A DNA stretch of 64,000 nt from Sarcomyxa edulis (Eukaryota > Basidiomycota > Agaricomycetes > Agaricales > Mycenaceae). Of the stretch, positions 24,714-55,082 are shown piece after piece. The DNA is taken from positions 620,001 through 684,000 of the forward strand of contig QUOL01000019.1 in NCBI GenBank assembly GCA_009761415.1, read 5' to 3'. A program made the translations under genes and the position numbers. The notes under the pieces were generated by a model. It saw nothing but the letters and a program-made list of their open reading frames with translations. It had not been told where the DNA came from and did not search any database. Positions within the stretch are counted from its first letter, which is position 1. Every line of letters begins with the position of its first letter.

Positions 24714-24753
24714 ACTATCAAAAGCGGTAGTTATAATCGCGATACCCCATGAC

Positions 24754-32619: not shown

Positions 32620-34369
32620 TGTGATGAGGACTGCGGCGCTAGGAGTAGATGTGCTAGACTCCTAACTATAGTTCGCCTCTAGGGGGTAAGGTGACGTTTT
32701 CTCGGAGGGGATTTTACGTAGCGAGAAATCCTAATGCCCAATGACTTGTGTTTGGATAATGTGTCCGTAAAACGGTGGTGAGGTGGGTATGAGATGATGA
32801 GGTGTGAGGTAAGCTTCGGACTTGTAGGTTCGTTCTCGGTAGGCCGTTTAGAGGCTTCGGACAGCTATAGGTTCGTTCTTGGAAGACCTACGAAGGCCTC
32901 GGACAGCTTTCGGAGAGCTGATCGATGTTTTGGACGGCTTATAAAACGTCTTCGGAGAGCTATCGAGGGCTTCGGACAGCTATAAGTTCGTTCTTGGAGA
33001 ACCTACGAGGGCCTCGGACAGCTTTTGGTGAGCCGACCGATGCTTTGTATAGCTGAAAAACGTCTTCGGAGAGCTATCGAAGGTTTCGGACAGCTCTTGA
33101 ACTGATTTCGGAGAGCTTCGAGGGTTTCGGACAGTTCTGGACTGATTTCGGAGAGCTTCCTTTGTTCCGGGAGTGGTACTGCCGACTGAATCAAGTCCTT
33201 TTTCTCTTGTTTTGACCGACTCCTGTAATCGTTCCTTGTCTCGGTTTCAGAAGTATGAGAAAGAGATAGAATTCCTATAGAGAGTGACTGGGTAGTTGGT
33301 CGATTCGGGTATGTTCCTCTGGTTCTCGTCCACACTGGTTCTATCTACCGTTCTCCATGTCCTATCCTACTTTATATATGAATTCCTTCCCTGTCCTTGC
33401 CTAATTCTTCACCCCGAGTGCCATCCCAAGGTCCCCGAGATCTCCAATGATGAAACAGATCCGGTATTGGTTTTGATGTGTCCGAACCTCGCTCAGTGTG
33501 AAAGGTTAGGGCCTGAGGTGTTCTCTGAAAGCGTTGCAAGGTGAATTTGTGAAGGGATGAAACATGTCCGAGTGAGCAGGATGATGGGGAGCTTCCGATA
33601 GATTTTTCCAAGATGCGACGGCCAAAGTTGTCCGAGAAGAGTGAATTTGATGTGGGTTGCTAGGCGGAGACCTGTAGTGTCTTTGTTAGCGGGCGATACC
33701 TCGCTTACAAGTGCTGTGTCATGTGATAAACACAGAGGGAAGAATATTCCGTAGCACCACTTGGTCAGGGTGGACGGAGGTCTTAACGAGGCGTCCAGAT
33801 GCATGGAAAGGTGTGAATTGAGATCACAATGTAAAGGGAATATGTCCGATTTGATAGGAAGAACAGCTCAGGGCAGCAAGCATCACATTGGCGGTATGTC
33901 GACTGGTGGCAATGTTTTGTCGGTGAAGTATCTCTCGATGAGGTCTTCTAGAGGTGAAAGGGAACCTGCTGAAACGATTTGGGATCTGTCCGAAGGATCT
34001 AGGGGGCTGCGGAGAGGTGATCGAGTACATTGGGCCTTCGGTCAGGTGAAACAACGATAGGGAATTGGGTTCTGGCGGTAGATTTCCTTCGGAGAAGTTG
34101 TTCGTGTGTGATTTCAAGTATTCCGAAACGTTCTGAGACGTGACCGAAGGCGGGTTAGCGTTTGGTGAGTGGATGAAGAGGCCGCTTTCGGGGAGAAACC
34201 GTCAAGTAGCGGGTACTTGGTGTCTTTCAGTGTCCGGTCATTCGAAAAGTAAGTCGTTTGTGGTGATGCCACCAGTATCTCTGTAGTTAGCTATGTCTGA
34301 GGAGTCGCATAAGAGTAGGTTGTTGTATAGTTGTCGATTCCTTGGCTGGGGATGCTGGCATCCTCACAC
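32620..34369 (-). repeat. LTR 1 (3' LTR of body A)
   Basis: 1750 bp, bounded TG...CA. It recurs as LTR 3 (49929-51560) in the same orientation and as LTR 2 (46754-48502) inverted. It is a 3' LTR because a polypurine tract (AGGAGGAAG on the minus strand) touches its inner end. It contains two copies of a ~117 bp tandem unit made of CTTCGGACAGCT and CTTCGGAGAGCT words (about 32850-33083). Open frames of 60-110 codons on both strands are not thought to be genes. Confidence 0.85.
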
Positions 34370-34378
34370 TTCCTCCTA
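34370..34378 (-). other. Polypurine tract of body A
   Basis: Minus-strand AGGAGGAAG lies directly against the TG start of the 3' LTR. The same tract occurs at 51561-51569 in body C. This is where plus-strand DNA synthesis normally starts in LTR elements. Confidence 0.8.
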
Positions 34379-34475
34379 ACTTTTAAATATCGACCGTCCC
34401 CGGTCGATCATCCGGAGGGCAAACACAACAGCGTGTCCGTGACCGAAACAGGGCAAGGACGACCGGCCGAGGACC

Positions 34476-34482
34476 TATAAAT
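34476..34482 (+). promoter_or_regulatory. TATA box of cassette A
   Basis: TATAAAT, 52 bp upstream of the ATG at 34528; conserved in copy 2 at about 51668. Confidence 0.6.
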
Positions 34483-34527
34483 CCCAAGGTTAAGACAGCC
34501 AGAGCTTTCCTGAAAGCAACAAGCCAA

Positions 34528-35466
34528 ATGGATCCCATAGCAAAAGAACTCTTCTTTACGCGCTGCCTCGATCTAGACGGGATAGATGGCGATATTACGA
34601 TGGCAACTTTCCTCGGATACCTGCGTAACAATATCCGTCCCATGGTTCACCTAGTTGTTAGCTGCATTTTTCAGGATGCAGTGGCGGACGTTCTCCTTCC
34701 GGAGTTCTCGAGTCACGGTGTATACACGTTGAGAAAGCACGTTAAAATCTTGTGCCAGCACATGGTGAGTGCGTGTGCGCCTTTCAGGGGGTCCGTGCTA
34801 ATTGCGAAGGTCAAGGTATTCATGCTCAGACTTAGATGGGTACTGAAGGGGAGGTGCATGGACGATACCACGGAGCCGTTTCCCAAGGAAGCAGTGACCG
34901 CCGTTTACCAGGTGCAGCGGTGCGTCCACGTCGTAGGGTTTTCCGGGGATCAGGACGAGGACGAGGCACATAAGATCGACGTTATCTTGTACTTCATAGA
35001 AGAATATGCCCGCCGATCGACATTCGGCGTCGCTTTCGATTACATCGAGGCGGACCCGCGTGGTCGGTTCCATGCGCATGCCGTGTTGAAGAAGCATCCA
35101 TACAGCGGTCCCAGGGTACATCGAGATGGTACGATTAGTACGGACAGGGGCAACAGCCTCGAGGGGGAAGAAAATTCGGCTAACAACGAAGACGAAGGCA
35201 TATCCGTCATAAGTATTGCAACGGACGACGGGGACGAAGAAATGGAGGTGGCCGAGGTAGAAAGGGCCTTGTCCGGTAAGAATTCTGACACTTTAGCGGT
35301 GCGGCAACGAGCTGATCGGAGAGGTACAGTCCAGCCACTCGCGAGCTTGGCAACACACGGGGCATTTCGCCTGCTTTTGGAGACGTTATCCGAAGAGGAG
35401 AGGAACGGTTTGATTGGCGGGGCGGCGATTATCGAACAGGGACTAAACAATTTGTCGGGGGCATGA
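34528..35466 (+). CDS. Antisense cassette A, array protein, copy 1
   Basis: Open from 34528 to 35466 as 312 residues, or 297 if the 45 bp candidate intron 34765-34809 is removed; that intron sits where cassettes B-E have theirs, after ~79 codons. The first part carries the shared pattern MATFLGYLRNNIRPMVHLVV and LRKHVKILCQHM. The second part is helical (YFIEEYARRSTFG), followed by an acidic stretch (EEGISVISIATDDGDEEMEV-like) and a helical end. It lies just inside the 3' LTR on the strand opposite to pol. No known family. Copy 2 at 51720-52658 is nearly identical and open. Confidence 0.62.
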   Translation: MDPIAKELFFTRCLDLDGIDGDITMATFLGYLRNNIRPMVHLVVSCIFQDAVADVLLPEFSSHGVYTLRKHVKILCQHMVSACAPFRGSVLIAKVKVFMLRLRWVLKGRCMDDTTEPFPKEAVTAVYQVQRCVHVVGFSGDQDEDEAHKIDVILYFIEEYARRSTFGVAFDYIEADPRGRFHAHAVLKKHPYSGPRVHRDGTISTDRGNSLEGEENSANNEDEGISVISIATDDGDEEMEVAEVERALSGKNSDTLAVRQRADRRGTVQPLASLATHGAFRLLLETLSEEERNGLIGGAAIIEQGLNNLSGA

Positions 35467-35526
35467 GGCGGCAAGAAGAGGGAAGGGTTCGGAGAGGTGA
35501 TCGAAGGCATGCAGTCATCATGTACA

Positions 35527-35532
35527 TATAAA
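35527..35532 (+). promoter_or_regulatory. TATA box of cassette B
   Basis: TATAAA, 35 bp upstream of the ATG at 35562; conserved in copy 2 at 52719. Confidence 0.6.
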
Positions 35533-35561
35533 CGACGAGTCCTTTCGTGTTGAAAATCGAA

Positions 35562-36151
35562 ATGCCTGCCCGCAGTATGCAAATGGCTCGCGAGAGGCTC
35601 TGCGACTACTTCATGACGCTGAACGTCCCATCCTTTATTCGACCCGTGTTCTATCCGCACGAGGGCTTCGATGGATTCTTTCGCAAACGCCTTCGTATGA
35701 TGTTCGGTGTCATCCAGGCGACGCTTCCCCATAGGGTGACAGCATTTCCCGATGACACCGATAGCGTTATCGGGCAATATACGCTGTCGAGGCGGCTTAT
35801 GCGGTTTTTCGTCGAGAACGTTGTACGGGCTTCCACCGTTTTTCAGCGGGGCAACGCAGAGATACTAAAAAAAAATATCCTTCTGCGCAGGAACTCATCG
35901 TTGCATACCGTCAGCGGGCCAGGACCGATGCCAACGCCGCCGAATTTAAAATTCCTTCAGAGGTATCCCGTATGATGGAGTTCAGTCTTATCGTTTATGA
36001 CAAGGTCGGATTTCATGGGGACTGGGCCCTCAGCAGCGTCGGTCAGAGGAGGGAAATGCTTCAATCACTAAAAGACGAGGCCGACGTTAACGCTTCATTG
36101 ACTGGCGGGGCAAAGGAGTATCCCGAATTTGAGGACCTGGTGTTCTGGTAA
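35562..36151 (+). CDS. Antisense cassette B, array protein, copy 1
   Basis: Exons 35562-35822 and 35891-36151 give 173 residues across a phase-0 intron. Exon 1 has the shared pattern GFDGFFRKRLRMMFGVIQ and ends LSRRLMRFFVENV. Exon 2 starts ELIVAYRQRARTDANAAEF and has MMEFSLIVYDKVGFHGDW, similar to the second parts of C and E. The intron holds an A-run that differs in length by 4 bp between copies, while both exons keep exact length. This supports both the intron and selection on the protein. Function unknown. Confidence 0.65.
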
Positions 36152-36394
36152 GCAGGCGCCGTCGGTCTCGTTCTTTGGGCCCCTCAGAGGGATACTAATA
36201 GTCGGAAATTCGCATTTTAGAGCGCACGCGTAGCGGGGAAGCTTTCCTGGATGTGACCGAGGGGTTTTGTCGTCGTTGGTACCTTAACGGATAAACACTC
36301 CTTTCGCGTGCCGCGTTTGAATATCTTGTAGTTTATGGAATGCACTGTCGGTTCGGAGGGCAACGACGGTCTCGGGCAGCCTCCCAACCTCCTT

Positions 36395-36400
36395 TATAAA
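36395..36400 (+). promoter_or_regulatory. TATA box of cassette F
   Basis: TATAAA in the next spacer of the array, conserved in copy 2 at 53585-53590. The gene it serves is only partly resolved. Confidence 0.5.
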
Positions 36401-36481
36401 GGGTACCGATGTCCGATGATTCCACCCGCTGTGCGCAGACATTTGAATCGCGGACAGTTCGTAACTCCGTCAGCGGCTCTT

Positions 36482-36962
36482 GATGAGAGGAAAGTTCAGA
36501 GGGAAGGCGAGTGAGATGAGAACGGAGAGAGGTTATTAATGCTTTCAGAGCTTTTCTCCTTTACAATTTCGCTATATCGCTCAGTGGCCTGGTCATCATT
36601 TCGTTCTTCCGTAGCCTCGCCTTTATACGATGTCAGGATGATCTTCTCGTCCCGTTCAATAACTCGGCCGGCGCAGGATGCTGTTCTCTTCTTCAAGATG
36701 ATGCAGTTGCATTTCTACAGCGCTCAAAGCCGACAGCCGTCAAGCGCCAGTGGCTTCATGAAGTCATGGCCGTTTAGATCGAGGTGGCTTGCGTCCTGAT
36801 CGTCGTTGTTCTTACGGCGCAGTTGAGACTGTTCGGGTTAATACGCGTGCGAGTGATGTGACCGCGATCTTGCGAAATCTTTGCGAAGGAACAAGACACG
36901 GCGAAGTGTATCAGGTGAGGCAAGGACCTGCGACAATAGTCGAAAAGATGGTCCCAGGGTAG
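36482..36962 (+). pseudogene. Antisense cassette F, unresolved or decayed array member, copy 1
   Basis: Between B and C there is a TATA box followed by coding-like pieces that I could not join into one clean gene. One piece reads LSELFSFTISLYRSVAWSSF (open 36539-36799). A probable last exon at 36823-36962 follows a GCGCAG acceptor and reads ETVRVNTRASDVTAILRNL and GEVYQVRQGPATIVEKMVPG to a stop. Copy 2 has the same pieces at about 53672-54152, with small changes. It may be a real gene with more introns or a dead cassette. Confidence 0.35.
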
Positions 36963-37162
36963 CGGCGCGACGTGGCGGCCAGCTCGTGTTCTTTTGCATG
37001 TGGCATTCGCAATCGTTCCGTGAGCATCTATACCGAAGAACATGCGTCTTTACTGCTTCTGATAAGGCACGGTCCGGAAATTCCAACGGTTAACAGTGGC
37101 TGCACGGAGTCCGTCCGGACACCTCTTATCGGTCCGAGACGTCAGTCCTAAGTCCGATGAGG

Positions 37163-37168
37163 TATAAA
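37163..37168 (+). promoter_or_regulatory. TATA box of cassette C
   Basis: TATAAA, 49 bp upstream of the ATG at 37212; conserved in copy 2 at 54353-54358. Confidence 0.6.
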
Positions 37169-37211
37169 GAACGCCAGCTGGCGCAGGATAGCCATCGTTA
37201 TTCCAGCCAAA

Positions 37212-37807
37212 ATGTCGCATGTCGTTAGTTCATCGTTTACTCAAGCTCTCCGAGACGAGTTTTTGTCGTACGCTCAACCTCCTGAAGTTCTTGCCGGGGA
37301 TTTCGCTCCTACCGAGGGCTTTACAAATTTCCTTCGGTTCCGCCTCCGCCCTATGATGGAGATCGTCGAGCGGGGGTACGCGGCTTATCTTATAACGAGT
37401 TCCCCGAGAGACACCGTTGAACCAATCATATGGAGCGAGACGAAAGGCTGGTTCCGCATCGTGTTGGATCATTTGGTAGGCGTCCGTGGTTCACTCGGTG
37501 AGCTTCGGAGTGTTAACCTTACGTCTTCTAGGATGCCATTCTACGGTTTAGGGATAGGGTGACGGCAATTGGCCGAGGAGACGAGGCCGTGGTTCCGTCA
37601 GAAGCGTTGCGCCTCGCAAGCATGGTGCAGCTATTCCTTATCCATCACGGAGTTGAGCTCGGGTACGATGAGGATGTACTTGTGAAGAGGAAGGATTTAA
37701 CGAAGGAGTTCCTTTGGTCTATCGTCCCTGTAATGCACCGAGAGGCAGTTGCCGTGGAATTTCCGGAGTTCGTGATACGGTTGGCAGGGGAGGGTACGGG
37801 CAAGTAG
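37212..37807 (+). CDS. Antisense cassette C, array protein, copy 1
   Basis: Exons 37212-37475 and 37532-37807 give 179 residues with a phase-0 intron (56 bp). Exon 1 shows GFTNFLRFRLRPMMEIVERG and ends WFRIVLDHL. Exon 2 has ALRLASMVQLFLIHHGVELG, followed by YDEDVLVKRKDL, close in pattern to exon 2 of cassette E. No signal peptide or membrane helix is evident; both parts look helical. Function unknown. Copy 2 at 54402-54997 is open with almost no change. Confidence 0.65.
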
Positions 37808-37845
37808 AAGGGGTGTCCGATAGCTGAATAGCGCGATATTTTTAG

Positions 37846-37851
37846 TATAAA
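37846..37851 (+). promoter_or_regulatory. TATA box of cassette D
   Basis: TATAAA, 47 bp upstream of the ATG at 37893; conserved in copy 2 at 55036-55041. Confidence 0.6.
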
Positions 37852-37892
37852 GAGGGTGAATCAATTCCTCCGTACAGGTCACCGCAGAGCCC

Positions 37893-38611
37893 ATGAAAAT
37901 TATGGAACCCCTACACCAAGTCCTTTTGAACACTCTTGCCCAAGAGGCAGCAACGTTCGATATCCTTGATCGTGACGGAATGATTCACTATCTCAGGTGC
38001 CTCCTGCGCCCCGCTGTCGGCCTCGTTGCCGATTTTATATTCCGTGAACTCGGGCCCGATGGCTACTTCGTAGCTTTAACTGGTCGCGAGAGGGTTCCCT
38101 ACTACTGCAATGCGCAAATCGTGTTGCTCCTCGCGGTACGTTGGTCTAAACTCGACCCTTAGCGATCTCATTGTTTAACGGGTTTTCACTTGATCGGTAA
38201 CAGGTCCATTTCCACAGCCAGTGGCAGGAGCTGAACAAGCAGGACAGGCGTTTATACATGATTCCGTCCGAGATGAATAGAACGATTAGCCATTTGCGCT
38301 TGATTTGTCGGGCTGTCCGAATTCAGCCAGCAAGCCCCATTCATTGGGAGGTCGAAGCCGTCCGAGCTCTTACCGAGCTTAGCATACGCGCCCTGGCAGC
38401 TTACGCGTCGGCTGAAGATGCCTTCGATTGGCCGGAGTACGAGAAGCCCGGGGATGCCGCGTTGGAAAGCGCGATGACCAGATCGATCCGTCTCGATCTC
38501 CTCGAAAGGGTCGTGCCTAAGCGCGTTGTCGTAGTCGAGGGGGAGTCCGAAGGTGCAGGATATAGCGACGGGGAGGACTGGCCAGGGTCGGAGGAGGAAA
38601 CGACGGAGTAA
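37893..38611 (+). CDS. Antisense cassette D, array protein, copy 1
   Basis: Exons 37893-38135 and 38204-38611 give 216 residues with a phase-0 intron. Exon 1: MIHYLRCLLRPAVGLVADFI, ending QIVLLLA. Exon 2 begins VHFHSQWQELNKQDRRLYMI and ends in an acidic tail (EDWPGSEEETTE). One single-base length difference between copies falls inside the intron; the exons match in length. Function unknown. Confidence 0.65.
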
Positions 38612-38655
38612 AGTAACGCTCCCAGAATCATATGCCACTTATTGTAGTCTGCATA

Positions 38656-38661
38656 TATAAA
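38656..38661 (+). promoter_or_regulatory. TATA box of cassette E
   Basis: TATAAA within TATATAAA, 57 bp upstream of the ATG at 38713; conserved in copy 2 at 55845-55850. Confidence 0.6.
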
Positions 38662-38712
38662 CCTCCCCGAATCGTTTGCTCTGATCCTTAAGTCAGTAAA
38701 GTTCCATCGACG

Positions 38713-39648
38713 ATGTCCTTTATTCTCCGTTTGTCTGCAAATCGCTTTCCCGAAAATCCCCAGGATCCCGACCTCGAGAATGAGAGGTCTCCGACCACCA
38801 TCTGGTCTCGGTCAATTCGTAGCCTCCTAGGCATCGTTCATCTCTCCGTTAATGGGAGGTGTCCGACGGACGTTCCTCTCGAGGAAAGGCTCTGGGTCAG
38901 GACCCTCCTCACCCGGATCGTCAATTACGTAGTAAGCGGCTCGCTTGTTTTTCCTTCATCGTTCCTCTTTCAACATCGTCCGTCCAGCATCAAGCTATGA
39001 AGCTCCGAGCCTCCGAAGCCATTAAATCAGGTTCTTGGGATACCATTCCGATTCCCGCTCAAGCCACTACTACCGTCGCCATGCTCGAGTTCTTTCTGAA
39101 GAACTTTGGTTTCGAGGGGGACTACGTTGCGGTCAACGTTAGGAACGTTGGGTATCTTTTATCGTCGGTGAAGAGCGAGATGGTTGCCCAGGCGCGTTTT
39201 ACTTATTTCTTGGTTCTCATCCTTCGTTGATTTATCTCTTTTCGTCCTTTTCTAGGTCGGATACGTCGGAACCGCCCTGGATTTCGATGGATTTGAGTCG
39301 TCCGATGCGTACAACATGTACGGCGTGCTTCCCGAAATGAAGCAGCAGCAAGTTAATGACCTGCTCAGATCGCGGGCGGCTTTCGTTCCCAATCCTATTC
39401 TTCCCGCTCCTCAATATCCTCTTGTCCCTTTCGTCGCGAGGTTTCCCGTGAAAGAGGGCTTTGAAGAGGTCCGTCTTCACGGAGATGTTCCCGATCCTCG
39501 TCTCGGAGGCCTCCACCAAGTTCATTTCGGCCCTGGAGCTTTCGGACAGGTAGATCCTCGGAACGCTGCGACGCGTGGGAGAGGTCGCGGAGGGGCAAGG
39601 GCTAATCGTCGAGGAGCTGGAGCGGTACCTGATACTACCATTCTGTAG
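38713..39648 (+). CDS. Antisense cassette E, array protein with RG-rich tail, copy 1
   Basis: Exons 38713-38931, 38988-39182 and 39256-39648 give 268 residues. Exon 1 follows the array pattern (WSRSIRSLLGIVHLSVNG, ending LLTRIVNYVV). Exon 2 has VAMLEFFLKNFGFEGDYVAV, matching cassette C exon 2. Exon 3 ends in an Arg/Gly-rich tail (RGRGRGGARANRRGAGA), a composition often seen in RNA-binding or nucleocapsid-like proteins; this is suggestive only. The second intron starts GTTGCC, a weak donor. Copy 2 at 55902-56837 keeps all exon lengths. Confidence 0.62.
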
Positions 39649-40321
39649 ACCGTCCGATGAGTTTCCGATTCCTTGTCTCTGTAAAATAAATGCCTGATAA
39701 CAGGCGCATAATTCGTTCATAATTTTGCATAGTGTGAGACCCAGCGTCTCGGTCTCCTTGTAAATCTGTAAAACGTCGTGAGTTGCATACTTTTATCATA
39801 TCAGCGCATAATTGGGTTCGGTCTGCGTCGGTAGATCCGCTGGCCAGCCAGATCTACCGTCTCCGAACCCCGCATAGTCGTTTTTCTTCCAATTTCTTTC
39901 GATCGTTTGTCGTCCGTGGTCTTTTCGCAGTATTTCGTCACTGTGTACAGGAGAGCCGTCGCTCTCTATCCGTTCCGTATTTGAGGTTATAAGCCCCATG
40001 CGCCAACCATACTATTCTTTCTTGCTTGTCTCGTATTTCGGTTCTTCGTATTTCTTCCTTTCGTGTTCTTCCAATTTGACGTTCGTATTTTGACTTCCAG
40101 GTTTAATTCATTCTCCCTCCCCTTTTTCTTCCACCTTATAGACCATCGTTCTTCTTTCTTGTGAGCGGTTGTTTACCAAAGGCTTTATCGTTTCGGCAAC
40201 CGATTCGGCTTCTTTCCACGTGGCTGGAGATATCCGGGCTGAGATTTATCTGGGAGAGTTCTTTTGTTCTCGAAACCTCTTTTCGTTACAGTATCCTTTT
40301 TCACTTCGTCAGGAATCAGAT
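39649..40321. other. Spacer between cassettes E and G
   Basis: T-rich, probably the promoter and 5' leader of gene G. The copies are alike up to about 40100, where copy 2 carries a long T run and sequence divergence rises sharply. Confidence 0.45.
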
Positions 40322-41788
40322 ATGTCGTCCACTACCCGTACGTCGACTGGAAGGTTCAACCGGTCAATTTATGGTTTGTGAACTCCTTCATTGTCTATGT
40401 CGGTTTGCTAACGAATCTTGTTCAGATATTCTGGATGGCACCGTTGCGCAACCTCTCTTGTCCGCCCTCTCTGGCGATGTCGATTTACGAAACCTCTCGG
40501 CTAGTCAGCGGAGCGCCCTTGTATCCACTAGACGAATTCCCGGGTCACTTTTTGGCGTGTACAGGCAGCTAATGCCTGATCGTATCACGAAATCATCGAA
40601 GGAATTGAGATCCATGATGTTTAACCTTTTATCGATCGGTTATCCCAGCACGCCACCAGCTTGCTTCCACAATTTCCCGGAGCTGAATTCTTCTGTCATA
40701 AAGTTCATCAACAATTTTCCCTACGTTCCCGACTTTATTCTCGAAGCTATTTCGTATAATCTTCCGCGCACCATGGTTATTGCTAGCTGCGATCCTGAGC
40801 TTTCGAGCGACGAACCAGCCGATTCTTGTAAGTACTCCTCCCGGGCTCGTAGGTTAATTATTAAAACTGCTCGCGCCCGAATGGTTTAGCCACTAGTGAT
40901 GTCGAACCCGAAAGTGACTCCCCAAGGAAGAAGCAGGCCAGGCGGTCTACCCGTCGGTCGAAAAAAATCACAGGCTCCCCTGTACCCAGAATCACCGTGC
41001 TTCCAGCAGCTGAGGCTCATCGAGCACTTTCCTCGGCACGGCAGAATCAGAGAGGCAGGAAGAACCGTCTCTACTTTATTCGAGCCAGAGTCGGTCCTTC
41101 CTTTGCTTCATTTCATATTTTTAGCCGGCTGACTCCCTTCTTTCAAGGACTACCGATGCTCTGAATGTATTCGCGATGATGTTCCTTGCCTCGGTTTCAG
41201 ATCTCGGCCATGCGACTTCTGCGAAGGAAAGCAATCCGCTTGCAGTCTCGCAGATGGAGAAGATAATCTCAGTAAGCCTTTTCTTCAGGGCGACGGGTAT
41301 AATTGAAACCGTAGAAATTTCCCTTTTTAGGCGAATCAATGGCTCGCGCTACCGGTTGCATCAAGGTCCTGAAGAAGCCCGAGATGGTTTCAAGTGACGT
41401 CTCTGGTGAAGCTAGAATCCTAGCAAGCCCAATCGCCAGTTCGTCAGCCCGTCCCGATTTTCATAACGCCGCCCCTGGCCCGTTTCCGCGTATCGACCCA
41501 GGGCGTCCAATTATTCGCCTGTCTCCGGAACATCATCCTCAACCGCAGTCTGAATCCAGTATCGCACGCAGCGAGAAGATGGATGCCGTCGTTCGCGATT
41601 CCAGGTCCCGCCTTCTTGATGGTGCCAGGGATTCGTCTGCTTTCGGCGTGCTAAGCCCCGTTGTCGTCGATCATATGACCCCGATTATTGATCAGGTGAT
41701 GAAGGACATTAGTTTGGCATATCGCGTGTTAATCGAGGATGCTATCGACGAGGCGGATGAAGAGGAGATCGCAATGGCGTTTTTGTAA
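40322..41788 (+). CDS. Antisense gene G, cysteine-motif (zinc-binding-like) protein, copy 1
   Basis: Exons 40322-40373, 40426-40827, 40890-41089, 41148-41271 and 41331-41788 give 411 residues with all phases matching. The N-terminal half is helical (DILDGTVAQPLLSALSGD, YRQLMPDRITKSSKELRSMM). Exon 3 is basic (RKKQARRSTRRSKK), a likely nuclear signal. Exon 4 is a six-cysteine motif, C-x2-C-x6-C-x6-C-x2-C-x6-C (DYRCSECIRDD, PCDFCEGKQSAC), resembling fungal zinc clusters in spacing though not identical. The C-terminus has SRSRLLDGARDSSAFGVLSP and an acidic end. It might bind nucleic acid. It converges on integrase, with 153 bp between stops. Confidence 0.62.
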
Positions 41789-41941: not shown

Positions 41942-44900
41942 TCAAAAAGTCTTTTTCGTTGCCTCGCTGGTCCTACGTTCGCCCCGCCCCATCTGCTCCG
42001 GTATTAGTGTCGTGCCCTCGTGCTCCGGTCTTCTAGGAAACTGCCAAAGTCTCGTCCTGTATGTCCCTGGTAGAGAGTCGTCCCCTGGCTCCACCAAGCT
42101 GTACTCGTCCGGTGTATCATCATCCGCCATGTCATCCAGCTGTTTCGTAGTTTTACCCACTAAAGTCGTGACTTGAATAGTGATTTCGTTCCTCCTGAAG
42201 TAGGGTACCAATCGGTGCGCCGCAAAGCGATGTTCCGCGATCGCACCATTGACTTCGGAGAGTATATAACTCCCCGACTTCGTTTGTCGGACAACAACCA
42301 TCGGACCTATATATCGGGGCTTCATCTTGTTATTCAGCTCCTTCTCGATCCTTGTGTTTCTGATGAGTACAAGCCTGCCCGGGGCAAACTTGAAGTCGTA
42401 AATCTGTCCTTCATATTTTTTCAAGAACTGCTCCGCCGACTCGAGCCTAGCCTTATACTTGTCTCTCTGTATTTTGGATAGCTCCTTTTCCCGTCTTTGA
42501 AGCTTCATCGCTCTTCGCGTTATGAGTTCTCCGAAGTCCATTTCTTCGTCGATGAACGGGTGCATGTACGTTGACTGTTCCAAATCAAACGGATGTATCG
42601 CCTGGACACCGTGCGCTATGTAATATGGCGAATACCCCGTGGATTTCTGAATTGTAATCCGCTCGGCCCAGAATATAGCGTGCGCTGCTTTCGGCCAAAT
42701 CGACTGGTTCCCATCGCACGACTTAATGAGCGATTCTCGGACATCGTAATGCTTTCGCTCGATGACCCCTTGCGCTTGTGAATTATAACCCGAAATTCGT
42801 ATATGATTGATTCCGTACTGCTTTTTGAGGTGATCGACCGCTTTGACCCAAGGTTTCCCATTGTCCGTGACGATCTCCATTATACTTCCCCATCTGCATA
42901 GGACATCTTCGAAGATGAAGCTGGCCAGATTAATAGCACTCTCATTTTTCAGCATTCTCCACTCCGGATATGAGCTGAGCGAGCATCGTCCATGAGCAAT
43001 CACATGAAAGCCATCAACTGTAGGAAGGTGCATTGTGTCCATATAGATTTTCCCGAATAGCGGAAACGGAACCGCCACGGTCGGAGGAATGTGGATCTTC
43101 GAACTGTTTCGGAGTTGGCATTGGTGACATGTCCTGACGAACCAGGACACATCTCTGCTCATACTTGGCCACCAAAACCTATCCATCAGCCTGACCTTCG
43201 TTGTCCAAGTTGCTTTATGGCCGAATTTATCGTGGAGCTCGGACATTATTTGAATCCTCTTCTCCGGTGGGAGTACGATTTTGTGTTTTAGCTGTCTGTC
43301 CTTTCTCCATAATTGCCCATTCAGGACAAAGAAGTGAGCCGCTTTCTTCATAAATGCTTTGAATTGTTTATCGGACAATCCTTCGGGCCTGCTCGCTGTT
43401 TCAAGGTACTCAGTTATTCGTACAAGTTCCTCGTCTTGTTTGATAGCAAGAGTTGATTGGGGAATAACCACGTTCGGGACAACTTCGCCAATAAGGACTG
43501 CCAATACTTCTCTTCTTCGGCCAGGTAGCGAGGCGAAATATGCCTTTGCTATTGCTTCAGGAAAATCGCGCTCATCTATCATTAATCGATGAGGCGGCAC
43601 CGTATCCAGTATTGACCGAGCTCTGTTTTCGTTCCAGTTTAGCATTTCGACCGAAAATCCGCACGCCCTATCGATCCATTCTTCGACGTCGTCTTCCTCT
43701 TCCGAGTCTTCCGGGGCCTTTCGTCGTCTAGATAGACCGTCCGCCGGCCCCATTGCCGTTCCTGGAATGTGCTCTAGTTTGAACGTGAACAGCTGGATAG
43801 CTGCTATCCATCTATTGATAGCCGCATTAGGTTGTATATCCGGATTATTTAGCATTCCTTTGATATATTTCGCATCTGTTCGGACCGTCAGGTTTTTAAC
43901 CCCGACTATGTATAGCCTATAAGCCCTGAGGGCCCTGAATAAGCCATAGAGTTCGATTTTTGCCTGGGAGTATCCTTGCTCGCGTTCATTCCACGTAATA
44001 GAGCCAAATCTAGACGGATATTCGATCCCGTCTTGTCCGAGCTGCAGCAGGACGCAGCCCATCGCCCTCCAAGATGAATCAACAACTAGATATACCATCC
44101 TTTCCGAGTGGTAATCTATTGCTCGGAGTGCCGGAGAGGTTATTAAGAGATGTTTGAGCGTTTCCATGGCTTTTATCTGTGGCAATCCGAAGACGAAATC
44201 GACATCCTTTCGTGTAAGCATGACCAGCGGCCGCGCATGTAGCGAGAAGTTCTTTATGAAGATCCTCATTAGTCCGAGCGTTCCTAGGAAGGCTCGGACA
44301 TCTGTTAAATCTTCGCAGGGTGGCCAATCTTTGATTTTCTGGACCTTTGTTTCATCCGGGACTCTGCCATGCACGTTACAGCGGTGGCCAACGATGACGA
44401 CCGATGGTACTGCCAAAAATGATTTCTTGGCGTTGAACGTTCCTCCTGCGTGCCTTATTCGGTGAACAATTCGATTGACATTCACCAGGTGTTCCCACAC
44501 GAATCTCCTTATCCCTGGGTTGTCCGGTATTGTCTCGTATTCCCCGGTTTCCGATTGGTAGTACGTTGCCGGTCCCTTCACCGGACAATCGTCCACGAAC
44601 GGTTGTGTGATGTTCGGAATCTCGTCTTGCAGAATGAACGAAACATCTCCCTGTTGTATCTGGACCGAGTTAGTGTATCCTTGTGGAAGCCTTGTTAGCC
44701 TAAAAGTGCCCATCGGCGTTTGGAACGTCGTAAGATCCCTTGAAGGTATAGCGAGGATTCTGTGGTCGAATCCCACAAACAGATCGAACATTCCATATAT
44801 CGTGGCCCCACCGAAGGACTCCGCATAGACTTCGACGATCGGCGGGCAGCCCGCGTCCTTTATCGTTACAGCATTAAGAGGCTGTAAGTCGTGCACAATC

Positions 44901-45720
44901 CTTAACGATACCCCATCCTTCTTTGGCACGCAGAACCACCTCGACCTGTACGATGAATTCGATGGTTCATATACTCCTGCCGCTATCTTGTCTTTGACTG
45001 CCTGTACCACCTTATCTCGTATCCCCAGTGGTATCGGAATGTTTTTATAGCTCCAAGGGGTGTGTTCGAGAACTGGGAGCTTAATCGGTTCGAAGTAGTC
45101 CGATCTGAAGTGGCCTTTTTCCATCTCGTTCCAGGCGAACGCCATTTCGTGCGTTTTGATTATATGATGGACTAGTTTTTCTTCCTCAGGCCATAAAAAA
45201 CCGTCCGGGTTGATATTTTGTTCCATCATCCTTTCCATCGTATATCTCGTGCCTGGTTCGAATCGCGGCGGATGTGTTGGTAGCTCAGGCAGCGTTTCCA
45301 GCGGGTCCGACGGGAACTTTCGTACTATCCTGTATTCCTCTGGTAGCGTAGCAGCGACCGGTTGGGTCCTTTTATCCACCGGTTTGTACTTCTTCCCCTT
45401 CTTTCTCTTCTGCGGTATTTTGTTGTCCGAAAGCGTCAGGCATTGCGTATTTTCATTTAGTATACAATTTTCACATGAGGGCTGATTGAGGGTTTGCTCC
45501 GCTCCCTCCGTTTCCGTGTTTTCGTAGTGCGTTCCGGTAAATATGTTACTTGCTGGGTGGCCCAGTCTGGAAGGGGAAAATCGTGTCGTCGAGTTCGTTG
45601 TTACATTATGATCGTTAATTTCAGCAGTCTGGGTATCGTCGGTCACCGTAAAATACTTGACCGATATGCTTTTTCGAAGGTTCGTCTCGACTACTGACGG
45701 CCTCCGACCGGGCGAAAACC
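41942..45720 (-). CDS. pol: Ty3/Gypsy Pol: reverse transcriptase, RNase H, integrase, copy 1
   Basis: A minus-strand frame of over 1234 codons. RT motifs: SRWFCVPKKDG, MFDLFVGFD, RLPQGYTNS and the catalytic FVDD. RNase H: VVDSSWRAMGC, EQGYSQAKIELYGLF, RTDAKYIKGM. Integrase: HHCC zinc domain (ELHDKFGHKAT to CHQC), D-D-E residues in YMDTMH, VTDNGKPW and GVIERKH, then a GPY/F-like module (MKPRYIGPMVV). No chromodomain was seen. The order RT-RNase H-integrase places it in Ty3/Gypsy. There is no ATG at the start; it is entered from the protease frame by a -1 shift at 45715-45721. All catalytic residues are present. Confidence 0.88.
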
Positions 45721-46753
45721 CACCGATGTCGGTGAAGATCGTTTTGGTTTGACGAACGTTGGAACTGTGACAACCTTCCCTGTATTAGGGCAGGTCAAGG
45801 TCAGGTCCTGGTTTCCGGTCGTGTAGTCCTTGGTAACGCATCCCGTTAGTTTAAAGAATGGTCGTCCCATTAGTATTTCGAACGGAGCGTTTTCCACCAC
45901 ATGGACCTTCAGATAGATTTCGAGTCCTCCAATATTAAATTTAAGGTCCTCGATAAGCCCCGTAGTCGTGTCATGCTGGCTATTGGCCGATTCCATAGTG
46001 ATTTTATGGTCCGGCCTCAAGTGTATTCCGAGTTTCTGCCAAAGTCCCTTGTTCATGGCAATTATTTCCGACCCTCCGTCCAACACACATTCGACCTTTT
46101 CATCCTCGATAGTCGGGTAGATTACTCTGAGTTTTTCAATGGATGAGCCCGTGAGGAGAATTTCTTCATCCGGTCCGTTCGGATTTTCGTACCGAAGGAT
46201 ATAACTGGAGTCCGGTTCGTCGATGTTGTCCGGATTAATCGACTCGAGTCGTCCAACCGTCGGAATCCTTTTAGTAGACACCAGTTCCTTGTACTGTTTT
46301 CTGACATCTAGGCTAAGCGAAAGTAATTCTCTTTGTGAGATGGATATTTGAGTATCAAGTGATCGGTTCAAGACCCTTTTTGCCAACTCCGGATCTTCTA
46401 TCGGCGTTGAGAATTTATACTGCGGACCAGTTTGTACCTGCTTCCTTCCTTCGGTCGCATCCTTTTCGAATTCTACCGTTTTCTTTTTGGGAGGAACTTG
46501 GCTGACCGGATCGTCAGGGAGCGGCTGAGGTCGTCCGGGGGGTCCTTTCCTTCGCATAGCAGGTACAGGTTTCTCCGTAGGTTCCAGCGGTTTGCCATTA
46601 CGGTTTTTTCTTGCTTGTTCGTTTGCTAGGACTTCTCCGATGTCTTCTTCTTCTTCCTCGATCTCCTCGATCCTTGATTCTTTGTAGTACGAACTAGAAG
46701 TTTCTCCGGACGATGCGAACCACATGGTAGAGGCATGGGGAGGTGCATCGCGT
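45691..46753 (-). CDS. Gag-protease remnant, copy 1 (5' end cut by LTR 2)
   Basis: The minus-strand frame ends at 45691. It has a retropepsin-like active site (CVLDGGSEIIAMNKGLW) followed by the FEILMGRPFF motif, preceded by a charged linker rich in P, K and E. Upstream gag is missing: at 46753/46754 the sequence switches to LTR 2, whose bases happen to extend the frame for 13 codons to an ATG at 46791. The native frame continues instead at the same point in copy 2 (63988 onwards). Confidence 0.75.
45715..45721 (-). promoter_or_regulatory. -1 ribosomal frameshift site GGGTTTT, copy 1
   Basis: On the minus strand the heptamer G GGT TTT lies in the protease frame eight codons before its stop. 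A -1 slip leads into the pol frame, which is open from here. It fits the X XXY YYZ rule and is unchanged in copy 2 (62956-62962). Confidence 0.65.
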
Positions 46754-48502
46754 TGTGAGGATGCCAGCATCCCCAGCCAAGGAATCGACAACTATACAAG
46801 AACCTACTCTTATGCGACTCCCCAGACATAGCTAACTACAGAGACACTGGTGGTATTACCACAAACGACTTACTTTTCGAATGACCGGACACTGAAAGAC
46901 ACCAAGTACCCGCTACTTGACGGTTCCTCCCCGAAAGCGGCCTCTTTATCCACTCACGAAACGCTAACCCGCCTTCGGTCACGTCTCAGAACGTTTTGGA
47001 ATACCTGAAATCACACACGAACAACTTCTCCGAAGGAAATCTACCGCCAGAACCCAATTCCCTATCGTCGTTTCACCTGACCGAAGGCCCAATGTACTCG
47101 ATCACCTCTCCGCAGCCCCCTAGATCCTTCGGACAGATCCCAAATCGTTTCAGCAGGCTCCCTTTCACCTCTAGAAGACCTCATCGAGAGATACTTCACC
47201 GATAAAACATTGCCACCAGTCGACATACCGCCAACGTGATGCTTACTGCCCTGAGCTGTTCTTCCTATCAAATCGGACATATTCCCTTTACATTGTGATC
47301 TCAATTCACACCTTTCCATGCGTCTGGACGCCTCGTTAAGACCTCCGTCCACCCTGACCAAGTGGTGCTACGGAATATTCTTCCCTTTGTGTTTATCACA
47401 TGACACAGCACTTGTAAGCGAGGTATCGCCCGCTAACAAAGACACTACAGGTCTCCGCCTAGCAACCCACATCAAATTCACTCTTCTCGGACAACTTTGG
47501 CCGTCGCATCTTGGAAAAATCTATCGGAAGCTCCCCATCATCCTGCTCACTCGGACATGTTTCATCCCTTCGCAAAATTCACCTTGCAACGCTTTCAGAA
47601 AACACCTCAGGCCCTAACCTTTCACACTGAGCGAGGTTCGGACACATCTAAACCAATACCGGATCTGTTTCATCATTGGAGATCTCGGGGACCTTGGGAT
47701 GGCACTCGGGGTGAAGAATTAGGCAAGGACAGGGAAGGAATTCATATATAAAGTAGGATAGGACGTGGAGAACGGTAGATAGAACCAGTGTGGACGAGAA
47801 CCAGAGGAACATACCCGAATCGACCAACTACCCAGTCACTCTCTATAGGAATTCTATCTCTTTCTCATACTTCTGAAACCGAGACAAGGAACGATTACAG
47901 GAGTCGGTCAAAACAAGAGAAAAAAAAGGACTTGATTCAGTCGGCAGTACCACTCCCGGAACAAAGGAAGCTCTCCGAAATCAGTCCAGAGCTGTCCGAA
48001 ACCCTCAAAGCTCTCCGAAATCAGTTCAGAGCTGTCCGAAACCTTCGATAGCTCTCCGAAGACGTTTTATAACTATACAAAGCATCGGTCAGCTCACCAA
48101 AAGCTGTCCGAGGCCCTCGTAGGTTCTCCAAGATCGAACTTATAGCTGTCCGAAGCCCCCGATAGCTCTCCGAAGACGTATTATAAGCCGTCCGAAGCAT
48201 CGATCAGCTCTCCGAAAGCTGTCCGAGGCCTTCGTAGGTTTTCCAAGATCGAACCTATAGCTGTCCGAAGCCTCTAAACGGCCTACCGAGAACGATCCTA
48301 CAAGTCCGAAGCTTACCTTACACCTCATCATCTCATACCCACCTCACCACCATACGAACACATTATCCAAACACAAGTCACTGGGCATTAGGATTTCTCG
48401 CTACGTAAAATCCCCTCCGAGAAAACGTCACCTTACCCCCTAGAGGCGAACTATAGTTAGGAGTCTAGCCCATCTACTCCTAGCGCCGCAGTCCTCATCA
48501 CA
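46754..48502 (+). repeat. LTR 2, inverted relative to LTRs 1 and 3 (5' LTR of a plus-sense fragment)
   Basis: 1749 bp, TGTGAGG to CATCACA; reverse complement of LTR 1 and LTR 3, and it includes both ~117 bp tandem units. A primer binding site follows its right end, so it acts as a 5' LTR reading to the right. Diagnostic bases (for example the GGTAATACCACC variant on its minus strand) are shared with LTR 3 rather than LTR 1. Confidence 0.82.
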
Positions 48503-48504
48503 AC

Positions 48505-48876: not shown

Positions 48877-49928
48877 TTACGCGGAGTCGGCTTGCTCCTC
48901 CTCAAAAATAAACCCGTATTGATCTTCAACTTGCAAAATGGCGGCATCGATAACGCCCGACAATTGATCACGGATAACGGGGGCCAGCTTACCAAAAACC
49001 TCGACGCCAGCAGCACCGTCAAGTATCCCAACCTTCAATCCGTCAACCACTGACTTCCATTTTTCTCGACGACCTGCGACCCGTTGACTCCGGGAAACGA
49101 ACGAGGGATTAATCGAGGAGGGTCTGGGGGTGCCGGATGGCTCAACGATACCCGTACCATCGAAAACCTCGGACCGACTCGTGGGTTCTTGTTGAGGGGC
49201 AGTCCTACGGGTTTCGGGCATGCGCATCTCGCCGAAAGAAATTGGAACCTCGGACAAGGCACCACTGGATGTTGGCTCTGCAGGATGGCGACCACCAACG
49301 AGCTTGGGCACTACAGATAAGGGAAAAAGCGGTAAACTCAAAAAGAACGCGATCTTTAAAAAGTAAAATAGAAAACGCACCACGGATTTTTAAAGGCGCG
49401 AATCGGGACTCCTCGACAACGGTCGGTGAAACCTCGCGAGCCTTTCCCTTTCCTTTATCCCTCGTTGGCATTTCCCGCTGCCCGCTGATATCCGAAGGAC
49501 CGGGAAGACTGCTGGAAGTCTCGGGCACGGGAGCGATTTTTTTTGGGGCAATAACAATTTCCCCCAGTTCGATGGCGCGAGAGAGATCGAGAAGGCCTTC
49601 GTCCTCGTGAATGTCGCAGCCGGTTCTCCGAGCAAAACATCTGTCGCAGGCGTGACTACGATGCCCGTTACAAGTGACGTTGTGCTTGATGCATCTGCTG
49701 CAACGCCAGTCCTATAAAATGGGTTTTTTTAGTACTAGAAGGAAGAACGGAAAAGAAAAACGTGCCAGGTGACGAATAAGGTATGGCTGTTGAGCCTTCA
49801 AGATACGACCTGCCCTTTTCGAAGAGATACCGGGGGGCTTCTTGATGGGAACCGCGCGAGTCGCTGAGGGAGGAAGAACTACGATACGAGGACGAACGAC
49901 GTCCGTATCAGACTCCTCCCTTGCGCGT
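48877..49928 (-). pseudogene. Diverged gene-G homologue, 5' end removed by LTR 3
   Basis: On the minus strand the exons follow gene G's plan: a basic, proline-rich part (RPRIVVLPPSATRA, SKRAGRILKAQ), the six-cysteine exon (DWRCSRCIKHN, ACDRCFARRTGC), a linker (LSRAIELGEIVIAPKKIAP), and a C-terminal part (VGILDGAAGVEVFGKLAPVI) ending with a stop at 48877. The start and first exons are missing because LTR 3 begins at 49929. It is far more diverged from copies 1 and 2 than they are from each other, so it comes from another member of the family. Confidence 0.6.
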
Positions 49929-51560
49929 TGTGATGAGGACTGCGGCGCTAGGAGTAGATGGACTAGACTCCTAACTATAGTTCGCCTCTAGGGGGTAAGG
50001 TGACGTTTTCTCGGAGGGGATTTTACGTAGCGAGAAATCCTAATGCCCAGTGACTTGTGTTTGGATAATGTGTTCGTATGGTGGTGAGGTGGGTATGGGA
50101 TGATGAGGTGTGAGGTAAGCTTCGGACTTGTAGGATCGTTCTCGGTAGGCCGTTTAGAGGCTTCGGACAGCTATAGGTTCGTTCTTGGAAAACCTACGAA
50201 GGCCTCGGACAGCTTTCGGAGAGCTGATCGATGCTTCGGACGGCTTATAAAACGTCTTCGGAGAGCTATCGAGGGTTTCGGACAGCTCTGAACTGATTTC
50301 GGAGAGCTTCGAGGGTTTCGGACAGCTCTGGACTGATTCCGGAGAGCTTCCTTTGTTCCGGGAGTGGTACTGCCGACTGAATCAAGTCCTTTTTCTCTTG
50401 TTTTGACCGACTCCTGTAATCGTTCCTTGTCTCGGGTTCAGAAGTATGAGAAAGAGATAGAATTCCTATAGAGAGTAACTGGGTAGTTGGTCGATTCCGG
50501 GTATGTTCCTCTGGTTCTCGTCCACACTGGTTCTATCTATCGTTCTCCATGTCCTATTCTACTTTATATATGAATTCCTTCCCTGTCCTTGCCTAATTCT
50601 TCACCCCGAGTGTCATCCCAAGGTCCCCGAGATCTCCAATGATGAAACAGATCCGGTATTGGTTTTGATGTGTCCGAACCTCGCTCAGTGTGAAAGGTTA
50701 GGGCCTGAGGTGTTTTCTGAAAGCGTTGCAAGGTGAATTTGTGAAGGGATGAAACATGTCCGAGTGAGCAGGATGATGGGGAGCTTCCGATAGATTTTTC
50801 CAAGATGCGACGGCCAAAGTTGTCCGAGAAGAGTGAATTTGATGTGGGTTGCTAGGCGGAGACCTGTAGTGTCTTTGTTAGCGGGCGATACCTCGCTTAC
50901 AAGTGCTGTGTCATGTAATAAACACAGAGGGAAGAATATTCCGTAGCACCACTTGGTCAGGGTGGACGGAGGTCTTAACGAGGCGTCCAGATGCATGGAA
51001 AGGTGTGAATTGAGATCACAATGTAAAGGGAATATGTCCGATTTGATAGGAAGAACAGCTCAGGGCAGTAAGCATCACGTTGGCGGTATGTCGACTGGTG
51101 GCAATGTTTTATCGGTGAAGTATCTCTCGATGAGGTCTTCTAGAGGTGAAAGGGAGCCTGCTGAAACGATTTGGGATCTGTCCGAAGGATCTAGGGGGCT
51201 GCGGAGAGGTGATCGAGTACATTGGGCCTTCGGTCAGGTGAAACGACGATAGGGAATTGGGTTCTGGCGGTAGATTTCCTTCGGAGAAGTTGTTCGTGTG
51301 TGATTTCAGGTATTCCAAAACGTTCTGAGACGTGACCGAAGGCGGGTTAGCGTTTCGTGAGTGGATGAAGAGGCCGCTTTCGGGGAGGAACCGTCAAGTA
51401 GCGGGTACTTGGTGTCTTTCAGTGTCCGGTCATTCGAAAAGTAAGTCGTTTGTGGTAATACCACCAGTGTCTCTGTAGTTAGCTATGTCTGGGGAGTCGC
51501 ATAAGAGTAGGTTGTTGTATAGTTGTCGATTCCTTGGCTGGGGATGCTGGCATCCTCACA
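49929..51560 (-). repeat. LTR 3 (3' LTR of body C)
   Basis: 1632 bp, same orientation as LTR 1, but with one ~117 bp tandem unit instead of two. A polypurine tract adjoins its inner end. Confidence 0.85.
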
Positions 51561-51719: not shown

Positions 51720-52658
51720 ATGGATCCCATAGCAAAAGAACTCTTCTTTACGCGCTGCCTCGATCTAGACGGGATAGATGGCGATATTACGATGGCAACT
51801 TTCCTCGGATACCTGCGTAACAATATCCGTCCCATGGTTCACCTAGTTGTTAGCTGCATTTTTCAGGATGCAGTGGCGGACGTTCTCCTTCCGGAGTTCT
51901 CGAGTCACGGTGTATACACGTTGAGAAAGCACGTTAAAATCTTGTGCCAGCACATGGTGAGTGCGTGTGCGCCTTTCAGGGGGCCCGTGCTAATTGCGAA
52001 GGTCAAGGTATTCATGCTCAGACTTAGATGGGTACTGAAGGGGAGGTGCATGGACGATACCACGGAGCCGTTTCCCAAGGAAGCAGTGACCGCCGTTTAC
52101 CAGGTGCAGCGGTGCGTCCACGTCGTAGGGTTTTCCGGGGATCAGGACGAGGACGAGGCACATAAGATCGACGTTATCTTGTACTTCATAGAAGAATACG
52201 CCCGCCGATCGACATTCGGCGTCGCTTTCGATTACATCGAGGCGGACCCGCGTGGTCGGTTCCATGCGCATGCCGTGTTGAAGAAGCATCCATACAGCGG
52301 TCCCAGGGTACATCGAGATGGTACGATTAGTACGGACAGGGGCAACAGCCTCGAGGGGGAAGAAAATCCGGCTAACAACGAAGACGAAGGCATATCCGTC
52401 ATAAGTATTGCAACGGACGACGGGGACGAAGAAATGGAGGTGGCCGAGGTAGAAAGGGCCTTGTCCGGTAAGAATTCTGACACTTTAGCGGTGCGGCAAC
52501 GAGCTGATCGGAGAGGTACAGTCCAGCCACTCGCAAGCTTGGCAACACACGGGGCATTTCGCCTGCTTTTGGAGACGTTATCCGAAGAGGAGAGGAACGG
52601 TTTGATTGGCGGGGCGGCGATTATCGAACAGGGACTAAACAATTTGTCGGGGGCATGA
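51720..52658 (+). CDS. Antisense cassette A, copy 2
   Basis: Same gene as 34528-35466 with a few substitutions and no length change; candidate intron 51957-52001. TATAAAT lies at about 51668. Confidence 0.62.
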   Translation: MDPIAKELFFTRCLDLDGIDGDITMATFLGYLRNNIRPMVHLVVSCIFQDAVADVLLPEFSSHGVYTLRKHVKILCQHMVSACAPFRGPVLIAKVKVFMLRLRWVLKGRCMDDTTEPFPKEAVTAVYQVQRCVHVVGFSGDQDEDEAHKIDVILYFIEEYARRSTFGVAFDYIEADPRGRFHAHAVLKKHPYSGPRVHRDGTISTDRGNSLEGEENPANNEDEGISVISIATDDGDEEMEVAEVERALSGKNSDTLAVRQRADRRGTVQPLASLATHGAFRLLLETLSEEERNGLIGGAAIIEQGLNNLSGA

Positions 52659-52753
52659 GGCGGCAAGAAGAGGGAAGGGTTCGGAGAGGTGATCGAGGGC
52701 ATGCAGTCATCATGTACATATAAACGACGAGTCCTTTCGTGTTGAAAATCGAA

Positions 52754-53339
52754 ATGCCTGCCCGCAGTATGCAAATGGCTCGCGAGAGACTCTGCGACTA
52801 CTTCATGACGCTGAACGTCCCGTCCTTCATTCGACCCGTCTTCTATCCGCACGAGGGCTTCGATGGATTCTTCCGCAAACGCCTTCGTATGATGTTCGGT
52901 GTCATCCAGGCGACGCTTCCCCATAGGGTGACAGCATTTCCCGATGACACCGATAGCGTTATCGGGCAGTATACGCTGTCGAGGCGGCTTATGCGGTTTT
53001 TCGTCGAGAACGTTGTACGGGCTTCCACCGTTTTTCAGCGGGGCAACGCAGAGATACTAAAAAAATCCTTCTGCGCAGGAACTCATCGTTGCATACCGTC
53101 AGCGGGCCAGGACCGATGCCAACGCCGCCGAATTTAAAATTCCTTCAGAGGTATCCCGTATGATGGAGTTCAGTCTTATCGTTTATGACAAGGTCGGATT
53201 TCACGGGGACTGGGCCCTCAGCAGCGTCGGTCAGAGGAGGGAAATGCTTCAGTCACTAAAAGATGAGGCCGACGTTAACGCTTCATTGACTGGCGGGGCA
53301 AAGGAGTATCCCGAATTTGAGGACCTGGTGTTCTGGTAA
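52754..53339 (+). CDS. Antisense cassette B, copy 2
   Basis: Exons 52754-53014 and 53079-53339. The intron is 4 bp shorter than in copy 1 (in its A-run); both exons are unchanged in length, so the spliced frame is kept. Confidence 0.65.
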
Positions 53340-54997: not shown

Positions 54998-55082
54998 AAG
55001 GGGTGTCCGATAGCTGAATAGCGCGATATTTTTAGTATAAAGAGGGTGAATCAATTCCTCCGTACAGGTCACCGCAGAGCCC

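Follow-up and report, generated by a model that had tools for sequence, protein, structure and literature searches.

Extra antisense genes are known in several retroelements, and here we describe an array of six such genes in a 17.4-kb Ty3/Gypsy-type long terminal repeat (LTR) retrotransposon of the basidiomycete Sarcomyxa edulis, found in a 64-kb window (the whole stretch of DNA analysed, C11:620001-684000, within a 35.6-Mb, 40-contig genome). HBZ of HTLV is likewise an antisense regulatory gene of a retroelement, but HTLV is a retrovirus and HBZ a single gene. In the Retand lineage of plant Ty3/Gypsy elements, antisense open reading frames (ORFs) occupy a long stretch separating pol from the 3' LTR in all studied clusters, and most of those with a known domain carry TRP28; some clusters are without gag or other domains, and the author suggested a regulatory role (PMC11963269). 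The placement is as in the present element. Retand, however, is a plant element and the passages describing it mention neither tandem paralogues nor introns, whereas here there are six genes, no TRP28 match and copies without visible gag-pol.

Antisense ORFs between pol and the 3' LTR are also found in rice RIRE2 and in maize Grande, whose gene23 has a promoter of its own from which it is transcribed and encodes a nuclear protein (PMC7264820); as described there, these are plant elements with one gene each and no paralogous array. Boty/BcGypsy1 of Botrytis cinerea, like our element, is fungal and has an additional antisense gene, brtn (PMC8365987, PMC7264820), although these accounts name one gene and we compare by description alone. 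The VANC proteins of Arabidopsis VANDAL elements are element-encoded anti-silencing proteins acting via short non-coding motifs of related elements (PMC13317346); as far as that account goes, the likeness is one of mechanism and by analogy only, VANDAL being a plant DNA transposon. Extra antisense ORFs are thus known, whereas an array of spliced paralogues and elements that carry the array without gag-pol were not found in print: search listings restricted to openly licensed PMC papers showed no report of either.

The antisense array

Copy 1 of the element lies on the minus strand, and along the window its 3' LTR and polypurine tract (PPT) are followed by the plus-strand genes A-F (34528-41788) and then by minus-strand pol and gag/protease. 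The six genes, antisense to pol and placed between pol and the 3' LTR, have the coordinates given in a preliminary description of this DNA. That description also ascribed a common plan to A-E, and the plan stands: a TATA box 35-59 bp upstream of the ATG, a first exon of 73-88 codons and one phase-0 intron at a homologous position. Gene A spans 34528..35466 (exons 34528-34764 and 34816-35463), B 35562..36151 (35562-35822 and 35891-36148), C 37212..37807 (37212-37475 and 37532-37804), D 37893..38611 (37893-38135 and 38204-38608) and E 38713..39648 (38713-38931, 38988-39191 and 39256-39645), with first exons of 79, 87, 88, 81 and 73 codons, respectively. Every exon of B-E is a multiple of three and every intron is in phase 0. 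The genes had been called mostly spliced, and the predicted phase-0 introns lie as described, with the correction that A has an intron as well; this intron of 51 nt is in frame and has no stop, so that a 312-aa ORF reads through it. The second intron of E starts with GC in 7/7 copies. The TATA box of A, a pattern match, lies at 34476..34481 on the plus strand, and those of B, C, D and E start at 35527, 37163, 37846 and 38654 on the same strand. TATAWA is found at -52, -35, -49, -47 and -59 from the ATG of A-E (the TATAAA of E at -57), that is, at the expected distance in 5/5 genes compared with 2.9% of array positions.

A second family of the element, family 2, has eight copies elsewhere in the genome (L021-L028). 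In the copies read, its genes A, B, C, D and E stand in the same order as in family 1, and intron positions, splice sites and phases match between the families, the gene A intron containing a stop in family 2. Protein identity between the families is 40% for A, 34% for B, 31% for C, 31% for D and 48% for E. Under a looser pattern, TATA-like boxes were found at -41 to -74 in 5/6 family-2 genes but not in B', one more paralogue that lies between B and C in L025. The corresponding family-1 interval (36152-37211), where family 2 has B', spans about 1 kb and shows no clear gene; it holds weak open frames at 36515-36796, and no clear relict of B' was found in it. Relatives from other sequence sets show 74% identity to family-1 A, 66% to family-2 C and 66-91% to exons of E; the E relatives stop near exon junctions, and in P0004 the frame continues through an insert placed where the intron would be. 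By coordinates, the genome matches of A, C, D and E sit in family-1 or family-2 arrays (best candidates scored; B not searched). A profile search found no array at L051, a pol relative with 36-53% pol identity.

No Pfam family reached its cut-off in A or in B-F, and TRP28 (PF04195) matched neither A (E up to 0.1) nor B-F (E up to 1, with F joined from approximate exons). Low-confidence structure predictions suggest that A-E are small helical proteins, for which fold searches found no clear match, and E has an RG-rich tail.

Relationship of genes A-E

The similarity proposed among A-E proved real in leave-one-out and column-shuffle tests, and the five genes are paralogues, with D as the weakest case. 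An alignment of 11 proteins, built with first-pass family-2 splice sites that differ from the final models by a few junction residues, shows FLRxxLRPM in exon 1 and (I/V/F)PxEA...GFxxD in exon 2 of most. Homology therefore spans both parts of the genes; only the tails vary, and the "variable second part" of the preliminary description has to be given up. In the leave-one-out tests, a profile of the other genes was run against 1,873 open frames plus two spliced test proteins, with the frames of the trained genes set aside. The left-out gene ranked first in 5/5 cases, with E values for the better member of 4e-13 (A), 1.4e-12 (B), 7e-12 (C), 4.6e-5 (D) and 9e-6 (E); family-1 D alone was weak (E 1.1). 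Profile-profile comparisons were assessed against 60 column shuffles. None of the shuffles equalled the pairs B-C (E 2.3e-13) and A-C (1.1e-5) or the merged comparisons BC-A (3.4e-7), ABC-D (3.6e-6), ABC-E (1e-5) and ABC-B' (5e-4). The direct pairs A-B', B-D, C-D and C-E were equalled by 1-2 of the 60 shuffles, and D-E and B' versus C, D or E by 10-47. In a different sequence set, a relative of the E type matches A at a collinear place (E 6.5e-5).

Selection on the array

The antisense array is present in most copies and conserved like pol. Of the 25 full-length occurrences of gene A, 23 have no stop, and exon 2 of D is full length and open in 29/31. Between copy 1 and a second copy in the window (copy 2), A-E together differ by 23 silent and 5 replacement changes, and pol by 140 and 26, a ratio of nonsynonymous to synonymous rates (dN/dS) of 0.047. 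Silent and replacement variants number 32 and 11 in A (19 copies; dN/dS 0.070), 15 and 0 in B (19 copies, excluding locus L012, where the copy is broken; dN/dS 0), 14 and 5 in C (dN/dS 0.093), 19.5 and 10.5 in D (0.167) and 35 and 9 in E (0.069), the last three over 7 copies each. The neutral expectation is about 3.0-3.6 replacement changes per silent change. These ratios of 0-0.17 are far below 1 and indicate that purifying selection acts on the array proteins. The earlier suggestion, from equal exon lengths in the two copies, that the proteins are used is thereby supported in its conclusion; equal length is itself weak evidence, because A-E are only about 1% apart in these copies, and dN/dS across a larger number of copies tests the point more strongly. 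In family 2, the summed variants of A, B, B', C and D (8 copies) are 31 silent and 29 replacement, and the purifying signal is therefore weaker than in family 1.

Copies without visible gag-pol

The array is retained in two element families and in copies without visible gag-pol. A likely copy of the latter kind, element X (46754-49928), begins with a plus-strand 5' LTR at 46754..48502, recognized by LTR similarity and followed at 48505 by the primer-binding site (PBS) TGGAGCCCACCGCGAGGG. The C-terminal part of F', a diverged type of gene F, follows on the minus strand at 48877..49716 (six-cysteine motif at 49616-49702), with no gag-pol between the LTR and F'. Element X looks like an array-only copy that runs in the opposite direction and is cut by copy 2. 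In all 8 F' loci read (of 16 places), the PBS end of the LTR lies 348-410 bp from the end of F'. Six F' copies have 5,966-5,978 bp between A and the F core, compared with 5,897 bp in copy 1, so no gag-pol is inserted before F' either. The class with F' (15/31 F places) thus seems to lack gag-pol, and the F' type was seen only in this array-only class.

For the comparison of classes, L002, L012 and L017, which have no assigned class, were excluded. Seven array-only copies have 23 silent and 5 replacement variants in A and 12 and 0 in B; the variants of A and B private to these copies are 6 silent and 0 replacement (binomial P 1e-4 on the assumption of independent sites). For the last exon of F', dN/dS is 0.24 over 8 loci, one pair of which is identical. 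Copies 1 and 2 form a mosaic, being about 1-2% apart in the LTR and A-E, about 20% in F and about 4% in pol, and F types seem to have been exchanged between otherwise similar elements. Since the stretch from the LTR to E is near-identical in the two copies and F with its flanks is about 20% apart, recombination has mixed the classes. Genome-wide, a number of the element copies are clustered or sit close to contig ends; these places are perhaps centromeric, or simply assembly breaks.

Gene F and non-coding sequences

Gene F (40322..41788, plus strand) has no visible relation to A-E and probably has four or more exons, the boundaries being approximate. Between copies 1 and 2 its dN/dS is 0.095 for the core and 0.152 for the last exon. 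By eye, the protein has a basic stretch, and a six-cysteine motif, C-x2-C-x6-C-x7-C-x2-C-x6-C, is encoded at 41157-41243. F was found in 31 places as three types, 5 at 99% identity, 10 at 86-87% plus one fragment, and 15 at 36-38% (F'); the F' C-terminal part was found in 16 places. The six cysteines are kept in F and F', and family-2 F has, by eye, one changed spacing (x8 in the first half); basic stretches, also seen by eye, lie near the motif in the F types. Fungal Zn2Cys6 clusters have the spacing C-x2-C-x6-C ... C-x2-C-x6-C, and that of F and F' fits this pattern (PF00172). The motif occurs three times in the window, always in F or F', and similar motifs occur in three more places in the genome. 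Other six-cysteine genes lie at L052:844-1689 and L053:506-727 (C27/C32, C10), and a profile search of the neighbourhoods on C27 and C10 (L052-L055) found no A-E-like array.

A palindrome, ATCGACCGTCCCCGGTCGAT, lies at 34389..34408 between the PPT and the promoter of gene A, and is intact in 20/20 family-1 and 8/8 family-2 loci. Genome-wide there are 37 copies of the exact form, ATCGACCGTCCYCGGTCGAT, 29 of them carrying C and 8 carrying T, and by coordinates all 37 stand beside a gene A match; of the 41 sites of the looser form CGACCGN4CGGTCG, 4 lie elsewhere. CGG triplets are the targets of Zn2Cys6 proteins, and a CCG-N4-CGG site that of Leu3. The LTRs have motifs of their own: TCCGA/TCGGA occurs 21 times in the family-1 LTR against a shuffle maximum of 11, and for CGATCGG/CCGATCG the counts are 13 in 996 bp of the family-2 LTR (shuffle maximum 5) and 8 in family-2 intergenic DNA (shuffle maximum 4). 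Neither motif is enriched in the LTR of the other family or in 24 kb of other window DNA. CpG depletion was considered as a sign of silencing and allowed no conclusion, given CpG values of about 1.2 in the array and gag-pol, 0.94 in the LTR and 0.97 in other window DNA, and CpG transitions only 1.5 times those at other C/G sites; the low CpG value of L051 stems from a low-complexity stretch.

Organization of the window

The 3' LTR of copy 1 (32620..34368, minus strand; TG...CA), with tandem repeats rich in TCCGA/TCGGA, is 93-98% identical to the other LTRs of the window. The adjoining PPT, read in the sequence as GTTAGGAGGAAG in the sense direction, lies at 34369..34380 on the minus strand, and this stretch is partly conserved in family 2. 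Beyond the array, pol (41942..45646, minus strand; 1234 aa) encodes a putative reverse transcriptase, RNase H and integrase, and the gag/protease ORF (45691..46753, minus strand) is truncated at 46753. Pfam matched the protease (gag-asp_proteas, 1.2e-8), RNase H (RT_RNaseH, 1.1e-14) and integrase (Integrase_H2C2, 6.4e-18), with integrase after RNase H; a DUF4100 match in the gag/protease ORF stayed under the Pfam cut-off. RVT_1 gave no match at E 0.1, and an FVDD motif seen by eye marks the putative reverse transcriptase domain. The LTR of element X starts where the gag of copy 1 is cut. The preliminary description had placed the array inside a giant Gypsy element. We reject the reading of inverted repeats of 1.75 kb as the ends of one such element; this opposite-strand LTR beside copy 1 supplies the repeats.

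By sequence comparison, copy 2 has its 3' LTR at 49929..51560 (minus strand) and its array A-F at 51720..59022 (plus strand), and its ORF extends into gag with a CCHC motif seen by eye. Its 5' LTR, in the same direction, lies outside the window at about C11:685595-687334 (locus L031), giving a total length of about 17.4 kb. The direct LTRs (TG...CA), the PBS TGGAGCCC and the PPT are all present, and the LTR pair differs at 9/1631 sites. Read by eye, the flanks show no matching 5-bp target-site duplication, and recombination at copy 2 is suspected.

Left of copy 1, the LTR cuts a spliced gene on the plus strand (31757-32619) that has a separate TATA box; its joined model had no Pfam match at E 0.01. 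Elsewhere in the window, an ORF at 4827-6296 (minus strand) strongly matches DUF6589 (E 2.1e-76), a Mug190 C2 domain is among the Pfam matches, and there are two diverged local duplications (22572-24891 and 12115-14658, about 71% identity).

Discussion

The reading that we tentatively prefer, which we consider close to but short of an even bet, is that the array is an antisense accessory module for nuclear self-regulation or anti-silencing of the element's own LTRs. A-E would presumably have grown from one ancestor by tandem duplication, and host polymerase II would transcribe each gene in the integrated copy, starting at the gene's own TATA promoter, with splicing of the transcripts. Antisense placement would hide the introns and end signals of the genes in the genomic RNA and let them survive reverse transcription. 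Introns in the sense direction would disappear on passage through RNA, whereas the array introns persist in both families, as expected for reading from the opposite strand of integrated copies. The proteins would work inside the nucleus, where F would bind DNA and A-E would serve as small helical partners, and may keep the element's own LTRs transcribed or unsilenced; array-only elements would borrow gag-pol in trans, and protection of the LTRs would explain why they keep the array. The points that we count for a nuclear role are the kept six cysteines, the basic stretches, the family-specific LTR motifs and the palindrome beside A. A bolder form of this proposal, which we find doubtful, is a multi-gene antisense regulon in which a duplicated helical family and a DNA-binding factor that recognizes family-specific LTR motifs keep the LTRs unsilenced; the regulon would now be essential cargo, and array-only elements would parasitize gag-pol yet protect themselves.

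Several observations weigh against nuclear self-regulation. The Zn_clus matches (E 0.19 and 0.01; 12.3 and 16.3 bits) are under the Pfam cut-off of 21, and F is therefore not assigned to Zn_clus. The LTR motifs were chosen after inspection of a k-mer table. Of the 21 TCCGA/TCGGA sites, 13 lie in the repeat-rich first part of the family-1 LTR, and the count outside that part, a modest excess, was equalled by 5/300 shuffles. There is no excess of this motif in family-1 intergenic DNA (62/300 shuffles), and there is a mild one in gag-pol and in the A-E exons (1 and 12 of 300 shuffles). The LTRs next to widely different types of F are about 97-99% identical, so F has not diverged in step with the LTR motif. 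As a neighbour of the PPT, the palindrome may equally well serve reverse transcription, and it could be an RNA hairpin of that process. A-E are near-identical in autonomous and array-only copies, and selection in the autonomous ones may spill over. Finally, in gene E of family 2 replacement variants (46) outnumber silent ones (21), and there is one stop.

We regard it as unlikely that the array proteins serve instead at the particle or cDNA stage, in packaging, nuclear entry or integration, as retroviral accessory proteins do. Small helical proteins, at the low confidence of the models, and the RG-rich tail of E would suit nucleic-acid binding, and the array is conserved about as strongly as pol. 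F, however, has a zinc-cluster-like motif and basic stretches, and autonomous copies could provide particle-stage functions in trans, which leaves the retention of the array in array-only elements unexplained. The persistence of these elements without gag-pol would also fit selfish cargo, such as a drive or addiction system, riding on the retrotransposon. We consider this quite improbable: drive genes usually diversify fast, whereas A-E have low dN/dS, and no Pfam family was found at cut-off in A or B-F. More improbable still are captured host genes without a role for the element. The introns and TATA boxes are host-like, but the genome matches of A, C, D and E lie within the arrays, within the limits of the search given above, and the genes are conserved in two families, have relatives in other sequence sets and show low dN/dS. 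That antisense RNA alone matters, through double-stranded RNA self-control with the ORFs as by-products, is hardly credible for the proteins as a whole, since selection is at codon level (B again, with silent variants only), although antisense transcripts of LTR elements can give rise to siRNA sources (PMC7264820) and RNA effects may coexist.

LTR elements are usually viewed as gag-pol machines, and here selection maintains six or more additional antisense genes, among them five intron-containing paralogues. The array genes are kept even where gag-pol seems to be gone, which makes the role of antisense accessory genes of retrotransposons testable, and a single genome offers natural contrasts in its two element families, its three types of F and its array-only copies. 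The array system may be a fungal counterpart to the anti-silencing proteins of plants.

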